Assembly (NCBI RefSeq): GCF_024172095.1
Contig: NZ_JAMZDX010000004.1
Coordinates: 372,001-436,000 of the forward strand
Reading direction: 5' to 3'
DNA from: Kitasatospora cinereorecta
Lineage (GTDB): Bacteria; Actinomycetota; Actinomycetes; Streptomycetales; Streptomycetaceae
DNA: 64,000 bases
Positions 49,769 to 56,702 of this stretch are shown here, in pieces. Position 1 is the first letter of the stretch; each line of letters begins with the position of its first letter. The notes under the pieces were generated by a model. It did no database searches and had not been told where the DNA came from. It worked only from the letters and a program-made list of their open reading frames with translations. The position numbers and the translations under genes are program-made.

Positions 49769-51670
49769 ATGCCCGAACTCGTCCCGCCGCGCCACGGTGC
49801 GCGTGCCGTCTGGTCCGACTTCTGCGCCGTCGCCCCCAGTCCCGAACTCCGCCAGCGTCTGCAGGACCAGCTCACCAGGGCCCGTTCGGGCGCGGACGAG
49901 CTGGCCGGGCAGCTGGCGGTCTCCCGCGCGCCGCGCCACCTGGGGTTCGACGACGGCACGATCTTCCCGCCCGCCGAGTTCCCGCTGGGCACGCCGTACA
50001 CCACGATCCAGGCGGCGGCGGCCGACCGGGCGCCGCTGCGCGGCCCGGTGCGGGTGATCGTGGTGCTGGCGGACTTCTCCGACCGGGAGATGACCGCGAC
50101 GGCCCAGCACTTCGAGGACCTCTTCTTCTCGCTCGGGGTGCTGCCGAACGGCAGTGTCCGCGAGTACTACCGCGAGGTGACGCACGGCCTGGTCGACATC
50201 GTCGGCGAGGTGGTCGGTCCGCTGCGGCTGCCGCAGACGCTGGACTGGTACGCCAACGGCAACTTCGGCATCGGCCGGCCGAGCGGGGAGGCCAGGGCCA
50301 ACATCATGGCGCGGGACGCCGCGCAGGCGGCCGACCCGGCGGTGGACTTCGGCCCGTACGACAACGACGCCAACGGGTACGTGGACGCGTTCATCGTGGT
50401 GCACGCCGGGTCGGGCGGCGAGGCGACCGGCAACTCGGGCGACATCTGGTCGCACAAGTGGACGCTGCCGGGCGAGCTGAACGCCGACGGCACCAAGATC
50501 TTCGCCTATCTGACCATTCCCGAGGACGCCAGGATCGGGGTCTGCGCCCACGAGTTGGGCCACCTGCTGTTCGGCTTCCCGGACCTGTACGACACCGACG
50601 GCACCTCGGAGGGGGTCGGCAACTGGTGCCTGATGGGCGCCGGTTCGTGGGGCGGCGGCGGTGACGTGCCGGTCCACCCGTCCGCCTGGTGCAAGGTGAA
50701 CCAGGGGTGGGCGGCGTCGACCGTGGTCACCTCCGGCGGCACGCTGTCGTTCGAGGACGTGAAGTCCAGCCACACCGTGCACCGGCTGTGGAAGGACGGC
50801 GGCGGGGGCAGCGAGTACTTCCTGGTGGAGAACCGGCAGTTGACCGGTTACGACCGCTCGCTGCCGGGCCCGGGCCTGCTGGTGTGGCACATCGACGAGG
50901 CCAAGCCGGGCAACACCGACGAGAACCACTACAAGGTCGGGCTGCTGCAGGCCGACAACAAGCGCGACCTGGAGACCGCCCACAACCGCGGCGACGCCGG
51001 CGACCCGTTCCCCGGCAGCGCGGCCAACACCGCGCTCAGCGGCTCCACTTCGCCGAGCACGCAGTCGTACGCGGGCGCGGACACCTGCGTCACGCTGTCG
51101 GCCATCTCGGCGGCCGCGCTGACCATGACCGCCAGCGTCTCGGTCTCCTGCGGCAAGCCGCTGGCGAAGGAGTTGAAGGACGGCGGCAAGGAGCGCAAGG
51201 ACGCGGGCAAGGAGACCAAGGAGCCGCTGAAGGAGCGGAAGGACGCCCGCAAGGAGACGAAGGAGCCGTTCAAGGAGCGCAAGGACGTCCGGAAGGAGTT
51301 CAAGGAGCCCTTCAAGGAGCGCAAGGACCTCAAGGACCGGATCGAGGTGAAGCAGTTCGACCTGCCGGTCCGCCCGCCGGAGGGCGGCACGGCCGACGAT
51401 TCGGTGGCCGCGGTGCTGGCCGATCTGCAGGCCCGGCTGGAGGCGGTCGAGGAGGTCCTGGCGGGCGAGTACGGGCCGGAGGGCGGCCGCGAGGGCGGGT
51501 ACGGGGACGTGGGCGGCGAGCCGGCGGGCGAGCCGTTCATCGGCTCGGCGCTGCGGCCCGACCTGCCCGGCGGTCCGGTGTTCGACGCGGGTTCGGAGGC
51601 GCTGCGGCAGGCCATGGGCGACGCCGACCCGCAGGCCAAGCGGGCCTTCGACACCCTGCCCTCGCAGTGA
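49769..51670 (+). CDS. M6-family (immune inhibitor A-like) metallopeptidase with 14-residue Lys/Glu repeat
   Basis: A 633-residue zinc protease. The zinc motif HELGH is at 261-265, with GFPDLYDTDG and NWCLMGAGSWGG after it, as in the M6 family. No signal peptide is visible, which is odd for a family that is mostly secreted. Residues 474-523 form three exact 14-residue units beginning KERKD (KERKDAGKETKEPL type) plus a partial fourth. The last 100 residues are acidic with a coiled-coil-like stretch. GAGGGAG precedes ATG 49769. The stop overlaps the next start (GTGA), joining it to the ATP-grasp genes. Confidence 0.88.
   Translation: MPELVPPRHGARAVWSDFCAVAPSPELRQRLQDQLTRARSGADELAGQLAVSRAPRHLGFDDGTIFPPAEFPLGTPYTTIQAAAADRAPLRGPVRVIVVLADFSDREMTATAQHFEDLFFSLGVLPNGSVREYYREVTHGLVDIVGEVVGPLRLPQTLDWYANGNFGIGRPSGEARANIMARDAAQAADPAVDFGPYDNDANGYVDAFIVVHAGSGGEATGNSGDIWSHKWTLPGELNADGTKIFAYLTIPEDARIGVCAHELGHLLFGFPDLYDTDGTSEGVGNWCLMGAGSWGGGGDVPVHPSAWCKVNQGWAASTVVTSGGTLSFEDVKSSHTVHRLWKDGGGGSEYFLVENRQLTGYDRSLPGPGLLVWHIDEAKPGNTDENHYKVGLLQADNKRDLETAHNRGDAGDPFPGSAANTALSGSTSPSTQSYAGADTCVTLSAISAAALTMTASVSVSCGKPLAKELKDGGKERKDAGKETKEPLKERKDARKETKEPFKERKDVRKEFKEPFKERKDLKDRIEVKQFDLPVRPPEGGTADDSVAAVLADLQARLEAVEEVLAGEYGPEGGREGGYGDVGGEPAGEPFIGSALRPDLPGGPVFDAGSEALRQAMGDADPQAKRAFDTLPSQ
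51188..51337 (+). repeat. 42-bp coding tandem repeat (KERKD units)
   Basis: Units at 51188-51229, 51230-51271 and 51272-51313 each encode 14 residues; a fourth partial unit ends at 51337. The DNA has diverged more than the protein, so the repeat is kept by selection or is old. Confidence 0.8.
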
Positions 51671-52647
51671 CCGGCCCGGAACCAGGCCCCGGCCTCACCG
51701 GGACGGCCGCGGCGGCCGCGTCCACGGCCGTCCTGGTGCGGCCGGTGCCGGCCGTCGGCGCGGCGGTCGGGCTGCCGGCCAGCCGGCCGGCGGGCGATCC
51801 GGTCACCCTTCCTGGGCGCCGCAGGGCGGCGGCGCGGGCGCAGGCGGGTCGGCCGGTGGCGGTGCTGGCGGAGCGCGGGGACATCGGGGCGGCCGGGGTG
51901 GCGCGGGAGGTCGCGGCGCGCCTCGGCGGCGAGCGGGTCCTGCTGCTGACGCCGGGGATGCTGGCCCGCTCCCGGTGGAGCCACCGGGTCGGCCCGGACG
52001 GCCGGGCGAGCACCCGTATCGTGCTGCCGGACGGCCGGCTGCTCGACTCGGCCCAGACCGGCGCGGTGCTGCACCGCCTCGACCGGCTGCCGGCGGTCGG
52101 CCTGCGCCGCGCCGACGCCAAGGACCTGGCCTACGCCCGCACCGAACTCCTCGCCCTGCTGGCCAGTTGGCTGCTGGGGCTCGGCCCGCGGGTGCTGGGT
52201 CCGGTGAGCGCGTCCGGCGCCGCCCGGGGGTCGCTCTCGCCCACCGCGGCGCTCGCGCACGCCGCCCGCTGCGGCCTCCCGGTGGCCCGGCGCGGCGGGG
52301 CCACCCGGGTCGGCCTGCTGGACCGGCCGGCGCCGGGCGAGCGGCTGGTCCCGCACCTGGACTGGCCGGGCGGCCGCGGCGCGCCGGTCCCGGCGGACCT
52401 GCTCCCCGACCCCGGTGCCGGCCCGAGCGAGCGGCTGCTGCTGTGCGGCGAGCGCCTCGTCGGCGCGCTCGCCGGGCGGTACGCGGAGCCGTCCCGCCGG
52501 CTGGGCGCGCTGCTCGGCAGCGACCTGCTGGAACTGCGCTTCACCCGCGGCGTGCTGGCGGAGGTGGACGCGTGCCCGCCGCTCGCGGCGGCGGAGCAGC
52601 GGTCCGCGGTGGCCGAGCACCTGGTCGCCCTGGCGGAGGCCGCGTGA
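51667..52647 (+). CDS. ATP-grasp-like protein lacking the ATP-binding half (degenerate partner)
   Basis: A 326-residue protein. The segment LLDSAQTGAVLHRLDRLPAVGLRRADAKDLAYARTELLALLASWL resembles the pre-ATP-grasp region of RimK/graspetide-type ligases, and GLPVARRG follows where the first ATP-grasp strand begins, but the later metal- and ATP-site motifs (VYKS, E.N) are not found. It may be an adaptor or precursor-binding subunit for the complete ligase encoded next. It is coupled at both ends: GTGA at 51667-51670 and at 52644-52647. This family call is an inference. Confidence 0.6.
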   Translation: MTGPEPGPGLTGTAAAAASTAVLVRPVPAVGAAVGLPASRPAGDPVTLPGRRRAAARAQAGRPVAVLAERGDIGAAGVAREVAARLGGERVLLLTPGMLARSRWSHRVGPDGRASTRIVLPDGRLLDSAQTGAVLHRLDRLPAVGLRRADAKDLAYARTELLALLASWLLGLGPRVLGPVSASGAARGSLSPTAALAHAARCGLPVARRGGATRVGLLDRPAPGERLVPHLDWPGGRGAPVPADLLPDPGAGPSERLLLCGERLVGALAGRYAEPSRRLGALLGSDLLELRFTRGVLAEVDACPPLAAAEQRSAVAEHLVALAEAA

Positions 52648-53570
52648 TCCTCTTCTACGGCTGCCCGGACGACGATCCGCTCACCCGCGCCGTCGCGGCC
52701 GCCCGTGCGGCGGGCGTGGACCACCTGCTGCTGGACCAGACCCGGCTGGCCCGCTACGACCTGGTCTGCGGTCCGGGTCTGGCGGGCCGGGTCGGCGCCG
52801 AGGGCCGCACCGTGCCGCTGGACGCGGTGACCGCGGTGTACGCGCGCCCGCTCGACCCGCCGGCGGACCGCGCCGACCCGGCGGCCCGGGCCCGGACCGC
52901 GGCCTTCCACGGGTGGTTCACCGACTGGCTGGACACGGCGGACGCCCTGGTGGTCAACCGGCCGCGGGCGATGGAGTCCAACGGCTCCAAGCCGTACCAG
53001 GCGCAGCTGATCGCCCGCGCGGGCTTCGCCGTACCGGACACCCTGGTCAGCGACGACCCGGAGGAGATCCGGGCCTTCCACCGCGGCCACGGCCGGGTGG
53101 TGTACAAGTCGCTGAGCGGGATCCGGTCCATCGTCCGGGAGTTGACGGAGGCGGACGGTGCCCGGCTGCATCTGGTGCGGGCGCTGCCGACGCAGTTCCA
53201 GGCGTACGTGCCGGGGCGGGACGTGCGGGTGCACGTGGTCGGCGAGCGGGTGTTCGCGGCGGCGGTGGACTGCGCCGCGATCGACTACCGCTACGCCGGG
53301 CGCGACGGCCTGCACGCCGAGTTGAGCCGGTACGAGCTGCCGCCGGAGGTGGCGGAGCGCTCGGTGGCGCTGGCCGCCGGCCTCGGGCTGTCGCTGGCCG
53401 GGATCGACCTGCGGGTCCGCCCGGACGGGACGTGGGTGTGCTTCGAGGTCAACCCGATGCCCGCCTACAGTTACTACGAGTCGCACACCGGGCTGCCGAT
53501 CGCGGCGGCCCTGGTCGAGTTGCTGGCCGCCGCCGACCTCGGTGCGGCGCCGGCCCGTGTGGAGGTGTGA
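52644..53570 (+). CDS. ATP-grasp carboxylate-amine/ester ligase
   Basis: A 308-residue enzyme. After an N-terminal pre-grasp domain (ILFYGCPDDDPLTRAVAAARAAGVDHLLLDQ) come GSKPYQAQLIARAGFAVPDTLV, VVYKSLSGIRSIVREL (ATP-binding Lys), QFQAYVPGRDVRVHVVG, and AGIDLRVRPDGTWVCFEVNPMPAYSYYE with the metal-binding Glu and Asn. The layout matches RimK-like and graspetide-synthesising ligases, which form amide or ester bonds on peptide side chains. GTG 52644 overlaps the previous stop. Confidence 0.85.
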   Translation: MILFYGCPDDDPLTRAVAAARAAGVDHLLLDQTRLARYDLVCGPGLAGRVGAEGRTVPLDAVTAVYARPLDPPADRADPAARARTAAFHGWFTDWLDTADALVVNRPRAMESNGSKPYQAQLIARAGFAVPDTLVSDDPEEIRAFHRGHGRVVYKSLSGIRSIVRELTEADGARLHLVRALPTQFQAYVPGRDVRVHVVGERVFAAAVDCAAIDYRYAGRDGLHAELSRYELPPEVAERSVALAAGLGLSLAGIDLRVRPDGTWVCFEVNPMPAYSYYESHTGLPIAAALVELLAAADLGAAPARVEV

Positions 53571-53573
53571 GCC

Positions 53574-53876
53574 ATGGTCGCTCCGGTCGAGAACCTCACC
53601 GCCCTGCGCATCCGGGTGGCCGCGATCGGCCCCCATCCGCGCCTGCCCGACTGGGACCTGGCCGCGGTGGACGTGCTGTCGGCCGCGCCCGTCCCGGGGC
53701 TGAGCGATCTGCTGTCCTCGCGGGTCGGGCAGCGGATCGACCTGGCCGTGCCGGCCAAGCAGGCCGACGGGCTGCACCCCGGGATCGTGGCCGACCTGCG
53801 CGCCCGCCTCGCGGTGGGCGAGGTGCTGGCCGAACGCGACCCGGCCGAGGGCGACTTCACCATCGAGAACCCCTGA
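53574..53876 (+). CDS. Small hypothetical protein of the ATP-grasp cassette, 100 residues
   Basis: Unknown. It reads ENLTALRIRVAAIGPHPRLPDWDLAAVDVLSAAPVPGLSDLLSSRVGQRIDLAVP with a beta-strand-rich middle and an acidic end (ERDPAEGDFTIENP). It starts 3 bases after the ligase stop, so it belongs to the same transcript. No leader-core layout or Cys/Lys/Thr-rich tail typical of RiPP precursors is present, so it is more likely a third component than the substrate. Confidence 0.65.
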   Translation: MVAPVENLTALRIRVAAIGPHPRLPDWDLAAVDVLSAAPVPGLSDLLSSRVGQRIDLAVPAKQADGLHPGIVADLRARLAVGEVLAERDPAEGDFTIENP

Positions 53877-53952: not shown

Positions 53953-54777
53953 GTGACCATTTCTGACGCCACCCTGCTCGACCGGATCGAGCGCTTCTAC
54001 GACGCCGTCCCCCGCGCCGCCGCCCGCGCGGAGGACTTCGGCCCGCTCACCCTGTTCGTCCGCAAGGACCCGGGCTTCGCGTACTACGCCCGCCCGACGG
54101 TCGACGGCTGCGCCGAGGTGGGCGCGGCGGAGGTGGCCCGGGTGCGGGCCCGGCAGCGGGAACTCGGCGTGCCGGAGAGCTTCGAGTGGGTGGCCGAGAC
54201 CGCCCCGGCGCTGCGGGCCGCCGTCGAGGCGGACGGCCTGCCGGTCAACGAGCACCCGCTGATGGTCCTCGACGGCGACGGTCCGGCGCCCGGCGGCGAC
54301 CCGGACGGCATCGAGGTCCGGATCGTGCCGGCCGGCGACCCGCTGCTCGCCGCGGCGATCGCCGTTCCCCGCCTCGCCTTCGGGGAGCCCGGCACCGGGG
54401 TCGGCTCCGCCGGTCCGGCCGAACTGGCCGACGCCACGGCGGAGGCCGCCCGGGACGGCTCGGTGGCGCGGCTGACCGCGCGGATCGACGCCGGGCTGTC
54501 CGCGGTCGCGGTGGCCGTCGACGCGGACGGCACGGTGCTCTGCTCGGGCCAGCACCAGTGGGTGGACGAGGTCGCCGAACTGGTCGGCATCGGCACCCTG
54601 CCCGCCGCCCGCCGGCGCGGCCTGGCCCGGGCGGTCACCGCCTGCCTGGCCGCCGACGCCCGTGCGCGCGGCGTGCGGACGGTCTTCCTCAGCGCGAGCG
54701 ACGACGCGGTGGCCCGGGTGTACGGCTCGGTGGGGTTCCGGCGGATCGCCACCGCCCTCATCGCCGAGCCGCACTGA
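53953..54777 (+). CDS. GNAT-family acetyltransferase with N-terminal extension
   Basis: A 274-residue protein. The C-terminal domain has ELVGIGTLPAARRRGLARAVTACLAADARARG, the acetyl-CoA loop, and VARVYGSVGFRRIATALI. The N-terminal half (about 1-120) is a divergent GNAT-like or substrate domain. GTG 53953 is used; TTGGAT ends 5 bases upstream, so it may be leaderless. It follows the ATP-grasp cassette but with its own likely promoter. Confidence 0.78.
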   Translation: MTISDATLLDRIERFYDAVPRAAARAEDFGPLTLFVRKDPGFAYYARPTVDGCAEVGAAEVARVRARQRELGVPESFEWVAETAPALRAAVEADGLPVNEHPLMVLDGDGPAPGGDPDGIEVRIVPAGDPLLAAAIAVPRLAFGEPGTGVGSAGPAELADATAEAARDGSVARLTARIDAGLSAVAVAVDADGTVLCSGQHQWVDEVAELVGIGTLPAARRRGLARAVTACLAADARARGVRTVFLSASDDAVARVYGSVGFRRIATALIAEPH

Positions 54778-54813: not shown

Positions 54814-55707
54814 TCACTCCGGCGGGAGCGGGTCCGCCCGTTCCAGCAGCCCCGCCAGCAGGTCGCCGTGCTCGGCGACCCGGGCGAGCACCTGCTCGGG
54901 GCTGAACGCGAGGTCGTCCGGCGAGCCGCACTGCTCCACCTCGGTCCAGGCGAGCGGGGTGGAGACGCCGGGGACGGCGGTGGCCCGCAGGGTGTAGGGC
55001 GCGGCGGTGGTCTTGGCGGTGGCGTTCTGCGACCAGTCGACGAAGACCCGGCCGCTGCGCAGCGCCTTCGCCATCCGGGCGACCACCAGGGTCGGGTGCT
55101 CGCGGGCGAGCGTCTCGGCGAGCGCCCGCGCGTAGCCGCCGACCCGGGCGGCGGGGGTGGGCGGCAGCGCCGCGTACAGGTGCAGGCCCTTGCTGCCGGA
55201 GGTCTTGGGGTGGGCGGTGAGGCCGTCGGCGGCAAGCCGGTCGCGGATCAGCAGGGCGACCCGGCAGCAGTCGGTGAGGTCGGCGCCGGGTCCGGGGTCG
55301 AGGTCGACGACCAGGCGGTCGTGGTGGTCGGGTCCGGTGTCGGCCGTCCACTGGGGGACGTGCAGTTCCAGGGCGTAGCCGTTGGCGACGGTCATCAGGG
55401 TGGCGAGGTCGTCGACGGCGACGCGTTCCTTGGGGCCCTCGTGGCTGGGGGCGGTGACGGTGCGTACCCAGGCGGGCAGGCCGGGTGGCGGGTTCTTGGC
55501 GAAGAAGCCCTCCTCGCCGATGCCGGCGGGGAAGCGCAGGAAGGTCGCGGGCCGGCCGCGCAGGTGCGGCAGCAGGGCGGGCGCGACCTGGGCGTAGTAG
55601 TAGAGGGCCTCGCCCTTGGTCCATCCGGTGGCCGGCCACAGCACCTTGTCGAGGTGGGACAGGACCAGTCGGCGGCCTTCGACTTCCGTGACCTGGCGCT
55701 CGGGCAT
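54814..55707 (-). CDS. ligD: Non-homologous end-joining DNA ligase D polymerase-domain protein
   Basis: A 297-residue stand-alone archaeo-eukaryotic primase-type polymerase (LigD-Pol). SHLDKVLWPATGWTKGEALYYYAQVAP, FLRFPAGI, LVVDLDPGPGAD with the metal-binding Asp pair, KTSGSKGLHLY and FVDWSQNATAKTTAAPYTLRA are all family motifs. It adds nucleotides at broken ends before ligation. No ligase domain is fused here. It is divergent from ku across 32 bp, so the two are probably co-regulated. Confidence 0.92.
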   Translation of the reverse strand: MPERQVTEVEGRRLVLSHLDKVLWPATGWTKGEALYYYAQVAPALLPHLRGRPATFLRFPAGIGEEGFFAKNPPPGLPAWVRTVTAPSHEGPKERVAVDDLATLMTVANGYALELHVPQWTADTGPDHHDRLVVDLDPGPGADLTDCCRVALLIRDRLAADGLTAHPKTSGSKGLHLYAALPPTPAARVGGYARALAETLAREHPTLVVARMAKALRSGRVFVDWSQNATAKTTAAPYTLRATAVPGVSTPLAWTEVEQCGSPDDLAFSPEQVLARVAEHGDLLAGLLERADPLPPE

Positions 55708-55739
55708 ACCGTGGTAAATCCCCGCGAAAAGGACCGGTT

Positions 55740-56702
55740 ATGCCGCAGGTCACCTGGAAAGGCGTCATCACGTTCGGGCTGGTCAGCGTGCCCGTCCAGC
55801 TGTACTCGGCGACCGAGGAGCACAGCGGTCCCACCCTGCACCAGGTGCACGCCGAGGACGGCTCCCGGATCCGGCTGAAGCGCTTCTGCGAGGCCGAGGG
55901 CGTCGAGGTGCCGTACGGCGAGATCGCCAAGGGCTACGAGAGCGAGGACGGCCGCCAGGTGGTGCTGGACGACGACGACCTCGCCCAGCTGCCGCTGCCC
56001 AGCAAGAAGGTGGTCGACGTGCTCGCCTTCGTGCCGGCCGAGACCATCGACCCGCTGATGTACTCCAAGGCGTACTACGTGGCCACCGCCGACAAGGCGC
56101 CCGCCAAGCCGTACGTGCTGCTGCGCGACGCGCTGCGCGAGTCGGGCCAGATCGCGGTGACCAAGGTGACCATGCGGACCCGCGAGTCGCTGGCGGTGCT
56201 GCGGGTGCACGGGGACGCGCTGGTGCTGCAGACCTGCCTGTGGCCGGACGAGGTGCGCTCGGCGGAGGGGATCGCGCCGGACGAGAAGGTCACCGTCCGC
56301 CCGCAGGAGCTGAAGATGGCCCGCTCGCTGATGGACACCCTCTCCGAGGACTTCGACCTCTCCGCCCTGCACGACGAGTACCAGGCGGCGCTGCAGCAGG
56401 TGATCGACGCCAAGCTGGCCGGGGTGGAGGCCCCGCACGGCGAGGAGCCCGCGCCGGCGGGCGGTGCCGATGTGATCGACCTGATGGCGGTGCTGCGCAG
56501 CAGCGTGCAGGCGGCCCGGAGCGAGCACGCGAAGGCGGCCGGCCGGGCCGAGCCGGCGCCCGCCGAGGAGGCGGAGCCGGCGCCGAGGAAACGGGCCGCG
56601 CCGCGCAAGAAGGCCGCCGCCGAGAAGCCGGCCCCGGCGAAGAAGACCGCCGCCGCCAAGAAGACGGCGGCCAAGAAGTCCGCCCCGCGCCGGGCCTCCT
56701 GA
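55740..56702 (+). CDS. ku: Ku protein, DNA double-strand break end binding
   Basis: A 320-residue bacterial Ku. The core (WKGVITFGLVSVPVQLYSATEEHS, YESEDGRQVVLDDDDLAQL, AKPYVLLRDALRESG, PQELKMARSLMDTLSEDFD) binds ends as a homodimer ring. Residues about 255-320 are a Lys/Ala/Pro/Glu tail (AKKTAAAKKTAAKKS) typical of actinobacterial Ku and able to bind DNA or recruit ligase. AAAGGA precedes ATG 55740. Confidence 0.95.
   Translation: MPQVTWKGVITFGLVSVPVQLYSATEEHSGPTLHQVHAEDGSRIRLKRFCEAEGVEVPYGEIAKGYESEDGRQVVLDDDDLAQLPLPSKKVVDVLAFVPAETIDPLMYSKAYYVATADKAPAKPYVLLRDALRESGQIAVTKVTMRTRESLAVLRVHGDALVLQTCLWPDEVRSAEGIAPDEKVTVRPQELKMARSLMDTLSEDFDLSALHDEYQAALQQVIDAKLAGVEAPHGEEPAPAGGADVIDLMAVLRSSVQAARSEHAKAAGRAEPAPAEEAEPAPRKRAAPRKKAAAEKPAPAKKTAAAKKTAAKKSAPRRAS

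Follow-up and report, generated by a model that had tools for sequence, protein, structure and literature searches.

A four-gene cassette with a graspetide-type ligase

The DNA analysed here is a 64,000-nucleotide stretch of the Kitasatospora cinereorecta genome (contig NZ_JAMZDX010000004.1, positions 372,001 to 436,000; hereafter the window), within which four genes follow one another head to tail along the forward strand. They encode an M6 metallopeptidase (49769..51670), which we predict to be a substrate protein; P2, a predicted pseudo-ATP-grasp protein with the graspetide-synthetase fold (51667..52647, or starting at 51856); P3, an ATP-grasp ligase of the graspetide-synthetase type that has kept its catalytic residues (52644..53570); and P4, a beta-rich accessory protein of 100 residues (53574..53876). 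The M6/P2 and P2/P3 junctions are 4-bp GTGA overlaps and a 3-bp gap separates P3 from P4, bearing out the coupling described in an earlier note made from this DNA. P2 and P4 have no family in Pfam, NCBIfam or PADLOC. No PADLOC model matches any of the four proteins, and no link to a known anti-phage defence system was found.

By sequence, P3 is a member of the graspetide-synthetase family, which its profile matches above other ATP-grasp families. Among solved structures it matches PsnB (2.1e-45), MdnC (2.5e-33), PruB (4.3e-33) and CdnC (4.8e-31), together with MdnB and AMdnB; the match to RimK is far weaker (1.4e-13), and that to the Pfam RimK domain stands at 1.4e-8. Residues assigned to ATP, magnesium or substrate (K155, R195, R216, D255, E268 and N270) are invariant across 35 P3 sequences, and R195 and R216 align with arginines of PsnB.

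P2 aligns with the P3 profile in hhalign with a probability of 98.7%, but is without the segment around the catalytic Lys155, and the positions equivalent to the magnesium-binding Glu-x-Asn of P3 (Glu268/Asn270) are mostly G/D/A/S and T/D/S. Its AlphaFold model (pLDDT 94) superimposes on AMdnB, PruB and MdnC (Z about 18; 2.9-3.7 Å over 231-243 residues) better than on RimK (Z about 13). Since the modelled fold matches these synthetases while the Lys155 segment and the Glu-x-Asn pair are lost, we regard P2 as a graspetide-synthetase-like pseudoenzyme; the degenerate ATP-grasp protein recognised earlier is thus upheld by profile, residues and model. Its start is ambiguous, lying either at the GTG at 51667 that creates the overlap or at the GTG at 51856, where the homology of relatives begins. 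The window's P2 accordingly has some 63 additional N-terminal residues (51667-51855), unseen in relatives, which are either an insertion or lie ahead of a true start at 51856.

The M6 peptidase (PF05547, 5.3e-23; TIGR03296, 8.9e-74) carries the zinc motif HELGH at residue 261 and, as had been noted, has no hydrophobic N-terminal signal sequence by hydropathy. A Lys-[Glu/Asp] repeat of heptad-like form K[DE]xK[DE]xx, the predicted core, occupies residues 467-524 (51167..51340). Its 14-residue units, KETKEPLKERKDAR, KETKEPFKERKDVR and KEFKEPFKERKDLK, are preceded by a degenerate fourth, KELKDGGKERKDAG, which has 8-9 of 14 residues in common with them. Contrary to the earlier note, the three full units are not exact: they share 10-12 of 14 residues (11-12 for neighbours). 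Better conserved than the repeat is an element that the earlier note overlooked, the C-terminal tag FIGSALRPDL (residues 590-599; 51536..51565), a predicted recognition element for P2/P3, followed by AKRAFD (AKxx[FY]D; residues 623-628; 51635..51652), which is conserved in every class A tail as defined below. Between repeat and tag lies a short coiled-coil-like segment, VLADLQARLEAVEEVL (51413..51460), also retained in orthologues from genomes without the ligases. A search of the organism's own genome for further tag proteins gave seven DNA matches, one being the M6 gene itself; none of the others is a C-terminal tag with a Lys/acid segment ahead of it.

A constant tail on unrelated proteins

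Scanning 84,980 species with two P3 peptide patterns, which miss divergent members, gave 46 loci chosen by P3 alone. They span Actinomycetota, Pseudomonadota, Chloroflexota, Nitrospirota, Acidobacteriota, Myxococcota, Verrucomicrobiota and Thermomicrobiota, the prevalence outside Actinomycetota being solely that given by this two-pattern scan. At 41 of the 46 a protein adjoining P3, once fused to it, ends in the motif [PHAST]-F-I-x4-R-P-[DE]-[LV], of which the F and R were fixed by the search pattern and are not evidence in their own right. The tag protein is nearly always encoded immediately upstream of P2. In L043 it lies downstream instead, and L050 (1460-2938) has a naturally occurring ligase-tag fusion, the C-terminus of P3 running into a segment with AFIPASERPTL as its tag. 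The tag is degenerate in L051 and L053. The five loci without a tag protein comprise two at contig ends (L030, L048), two with a decayed P3 (L040, L049) and one without P2 (L052).

In nearly all partners a Lys-[Asp/Glu] segment precedes the tag at a distance of 14-232 residues, usually 30-70. Such Lys/acid-rich segments occur in 37 of 40 partner proteins and in 2 of 368 other genes of the same loci, as delimited by a simple gene caller; one of these two is the L043 partner itself. The strict tag pattern is found in none of the 368. The association of the partner tail with the ligase pair is far above chance, although the counted sequences share descent and are not independent. The tag also recurs in three of four held-out loci that had not been used for the motif (L062, L063 and L065; L064 is decayed), and is absent from seven outgroup loci of other graspetide ligases. 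A second, domain-free tail protein rich in K, E and H, with the tag HFIGPELRPDL, is encoded in L017 (8636-9286, reverse strand), kilobases from the first and on the opposite strand, so that a single ligase pair may act on more than one substrate.

The bodies ahead of this tail are unrelated. Besides M6 they include S8 subtilase, trypsin-like, Big_2/TIG, DUF6519/DUF4815, kelch, NBR1-type Ig and phage-tail-like domains and several unknown ones, while about eight partners consist of repeat and tail only, with no recognisable domain. Partner proteins run from 160 to 1700 residues with the tag at the C-terminus. None has the form of a short peptide with an N-terminal leader ahead of a core, the domain-free K/E tails of 160-226 residues coming nearest, and none has an evident signal peptide, as judged by hydropathy and with some start codons uncertain. 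By sequence, the M6 peptidase is one among many interchangeable N-terminal domains, and the constant partner is the tail. Because the tail adjoins the pair almost always, whatever the body, P2/P3 very probably modify it, making the tail their substrate.

The earlier note had also considered that the peptidase might mature or release a modified product. Several unrelated peptidase families do recur in these loci, and Makarova et al. 2022 (PMC8939145) propose peptidases of branches 7 and 8 as suppliers of peptides, with precursors elsewhere in the genome. A role for M6 in maturing or releasing a product made elsewhere, or for peptidases in feeding peptides to the ligase, is nevertheless highly improbable: the peptidases themselves bear repeat and tag, the peptidase's place is taken at many loci by a tail protein of another kind or without any domain, and M6 is an exchangeable N-terminal domain of a sort that some partners lack altogether.

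Natural loss points the same way as co-occurrence. Four M6 orthologues, 68% identical to that of the window, occur in genomes of the same family without the ligase pair, where the only graspetide-like ligases are distant ones (best E from 1e-33 to 1e-37, vs 1e-131 to 1e-134 in true members). They keep the body and the short coiled coil; repeat, tag and AKRxFD are absent. One of the four, the M6 gene of L078 (1477-3120), retains EAFLRQNLRPES at its C-terminus, by its look a tag in decay. Conversely, no M6 cassette with both ATP-grasp genes but without the repeat was found in the window, L005, L010-L016, L019, L020 or L038 (the repeat of L019 being weak); L026, cut at a contig start, was left out of this check. 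Across phyla and on unrelated N-terminal domains the repeat goes with the ligase pair, and it is lost from pair-less M6 orthologues. This supports the earlier proposal of a ligase acting on the charged repeat, with the degenerate ATP-grasp protein as an adaptor.

Three classes of tail can be distinguished: A, PFIGxxLRPDLxGGP ... AKxx[FY]D; B, HFIxxxxRPDLSxGALxxEPD; and C, [AST]FIxPxERP[DEP]VG. In the P3 tree these occupy separate groups of 12, 15 and 14 rows (support 95/92, 98/97 and 92/94, respectively), tail class by motif thus matching ligase clade by sequence. Several class C loci adjoin contractile-injection or phage-tail-like genes with the Pfam domains Baseplate_J (baseplate J/wedge), Tail_P2_I and AAA-WHD; PHROG baseplate or tail matches occur in L025, L033, L039, L044 and L046, and Tail_P2_I in L037. 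Class C partners at such loci may be tail fibres or attached proteins. A limited literature search found no link between ATP-grasp enzymes and contractile injection.

The class A cassette of the window has no such contractile-injection neighbours. P4 is found next to class A tails only and may possibly be a partner of that tail or of the M6 body; its model (pLDDT 92.6) gives just weak, OB/NTR-like matches (best E 1.6e-3), and it shows a conserved pattern VENLT...HPR...VPG. Beyond the cassette lie a GNAT acetyltransferase (53953-54777) and, at 54814-56702, a divergent LigD-like open reading frame on the reverse strand and a Ku-like one on the forward strand, by appearance an ordinary non-homologous end-joining pair.

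The order of lysine and acid, and the bond it may serve

Across 37 segments with 676 lysines, the repeats obey a marked grammar. KK occurs twice against about 200 expected and adjacent acids 29 times against 220, while K-[DE] outnumbers [DE]-K by 491 to 221. At a distance of four residues there are 303 pairs running from lysine to acid and 136 from acid to lysine (26 segments against 5; sign p 2e-4), and at +4/+5 together 569 against 416 (29 segments up, 4 down); an acid stands at +4 or +5 for 548 of 620 lysines. By analogy, this placing of lysine before acid matches what graspetide chemistry requires, the nucleophile (Lys, Thr or Ser) being typically N-terminal to the acid (PMC12291112). A classical single-alpha-helix reading was rejected, because E(i)-K(i+4) pairs, which a salt-bridged helix would enrich, are depleted. 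The wider alternative entertained in the earlier note, that of a plain charged helix, leaves the co-occurrence, the correlated loss, the K-before-acid order and the common tag unexplained.

To what the comparisons establish (the ligase family, the dead partner, a constant tail on variable bodies, correlated loss and the match of tail class to clade) we add a mechanism in which tag binding, bond type, reacting residues and purpose are inferred. P2 would serve as a docking or activating partner, the P2/P3 pair recognising the tag F-I-x4-R-P-D-L. P3 would phosphorylate Asp/Glu side chains in the tag-bearing tail and join them, so activated, to a Lys a few residues upstream, forming isopeptide bonds with loss of water. 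Most crosslinks would lie within the K-[D/E] repeat, with AKRAFD as a probable further site in class A. The product would be a leaderless protein that ends in a stapled, protease-resistant rod, here the M6 peptidase and elsewhere other proteases, Ig-like proteins and contractile-injection tail proteins. Candidate roles for such a tail are a stiff stalk, protection, assembly or export. That P2/P3 reads the tag and links Lys with Asp/Glu side chains in the tail of an intact protein is, on these sequence patterns, the probable reading as a whole; for the narrower proposal of intramolecular isopeptides within the repeat, which draws on analogy with graspetides, we would put the chances at even.

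Several observations weigh against the proposed stapling. Families differ in repeat spacing (K[DE]x, (KE)n, KxE), and the repeat is weak in three loci (L019, L035, L036) and missing from L051. K-acid dipeptide repeats could in part be a product of DNA slippage, or selection could favour them as a soluble linker. All four pair-less M6 orthologues belong to a single genus of Streptomycetaceae, and one loss event may account for them. Finally, the tag lies C-terminal to the repeat, unlike the recognition leader of known graspetides (e.g. PFFARFL), which is N-terminal to the core.

It is also conceivable, if unlikely, that the repeat serves as no more than a charged spacer, modification being confined to the C-terminal part at or after the tag. 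The AKxx[FY]D of class A, conserved and with the K-x3-D spacing of corallotides, would suit such a role, but classes B and C are without it, the tails of L033, L039 and L053 stop a few residues past the tag and still have the Lys/acid segment, and the repeat too has gone from the pair-less M6 orthologues. We see somewhat less promise in a RimK-like tailing reaction, which would add free amino acids such as Glu or Lys to the tail carboxylates or C-terminus in place of crosslinks. The tails are acid-rich and P3 does match the RimK domain and, more weakly, RimK structures. RimK and LysX have the ATP-grasp superfamily and its chemistry in common with P3, yet their similarity to it is much lower, graspetide synthetases matching some 30 orders of magnitude better; tailing would moreover leave the K-before-acid grammar and the absence of KK without purpose. 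For neither enzyme do we know of a comparable partner, tag or repeat.

There is a similarly slender chance that the tail is linked to another protein, or between like molecules, for polymerisation or anchoring. Long repetitive Lys/acid tails would fit chain-to-chain links, class C partners stand among phage-tail-like genes for multimeric structures, and ThfB is able to crosslink assembled chains (PMC12291112). Against this, no conserved second acceptor gene adjoins all loci, and the characterised graspetides are intramolecular.

Relation to known systems and wider meaning

Returning to the modification of the tail by P2/P3, the nearest relatives are the graspetide systems (MdnB/MdnC, PsnB, ThfB, PruB, CdnC). 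P3 is homologous to their ligases from end to end and retains the catalytic residues, and the tag resembles their short hydrophobic-Arg recognition motif, class A tags starting with PF as does PFFARFL. The present precursor differs in being a whole, often enzymatic protein, tagged behind its repeat; further differences are the obligate-looking dead ATP-grasp partner and the want of an adjoining exporter or protease for a released peptide.

PMC13097080 describes corallotides (CorA/CorB, graspetide group 15), in which a ligase of the TIGR04187 type, to which P3 also belongs, makes Lys-Asp isopeptides in repeated K-x3-D motifs of a large precursor. The AKxx[FY]D of class A has this spacing, a likeness at the level of the motif; the oxygenase and beta-lactamase partners of corallotides are not found in the present loci. 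In MirB/MirC of the same source the ligase likewise depends on a co-encoded partner; MirC, however, is PPIase/chaperone-like and P2 a dead ATP-grasp copy.

A description that fits is the one given in PMC8939145 for branch 8: an ATP-grasp companion that is truncated and inactive, varied and unrelated neighbouring peptidase families and no precursor detected there. Matched by this description, the branch-8 ligases look like the present system, with the difference that here the neighbouring peptidase or other protein would be the precursor itself and not a supplier of peptides. If the present loci are branch 8, then the missing precursor is the neighbouring protein. Some of the tails may possibly already stand in supplementary precursor tables of the papers cited here.

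It is tempting to speculate, though we hold the full generalisation to be doubtful as yet, that a ligase and its dead twin read a portable C-terminal tag in several phyla and turn Lys-acid repeats on leaderless whole proteins into isopeptide-crosslinked rods. A portable tag of this sort would be a potential laboratory tool for protein stapling. The branch-8 ligases with an inactive twin had no known substrate, and for what looks to be their group tag and repeat offer a concrete and testable candidate. Should the reading hold, graspetide chemistry would be widened from small peptides to whole proteins and linked to contractile injection systems, and, if tail stapling is true, it would serve protein building or export and not small peptides alone.

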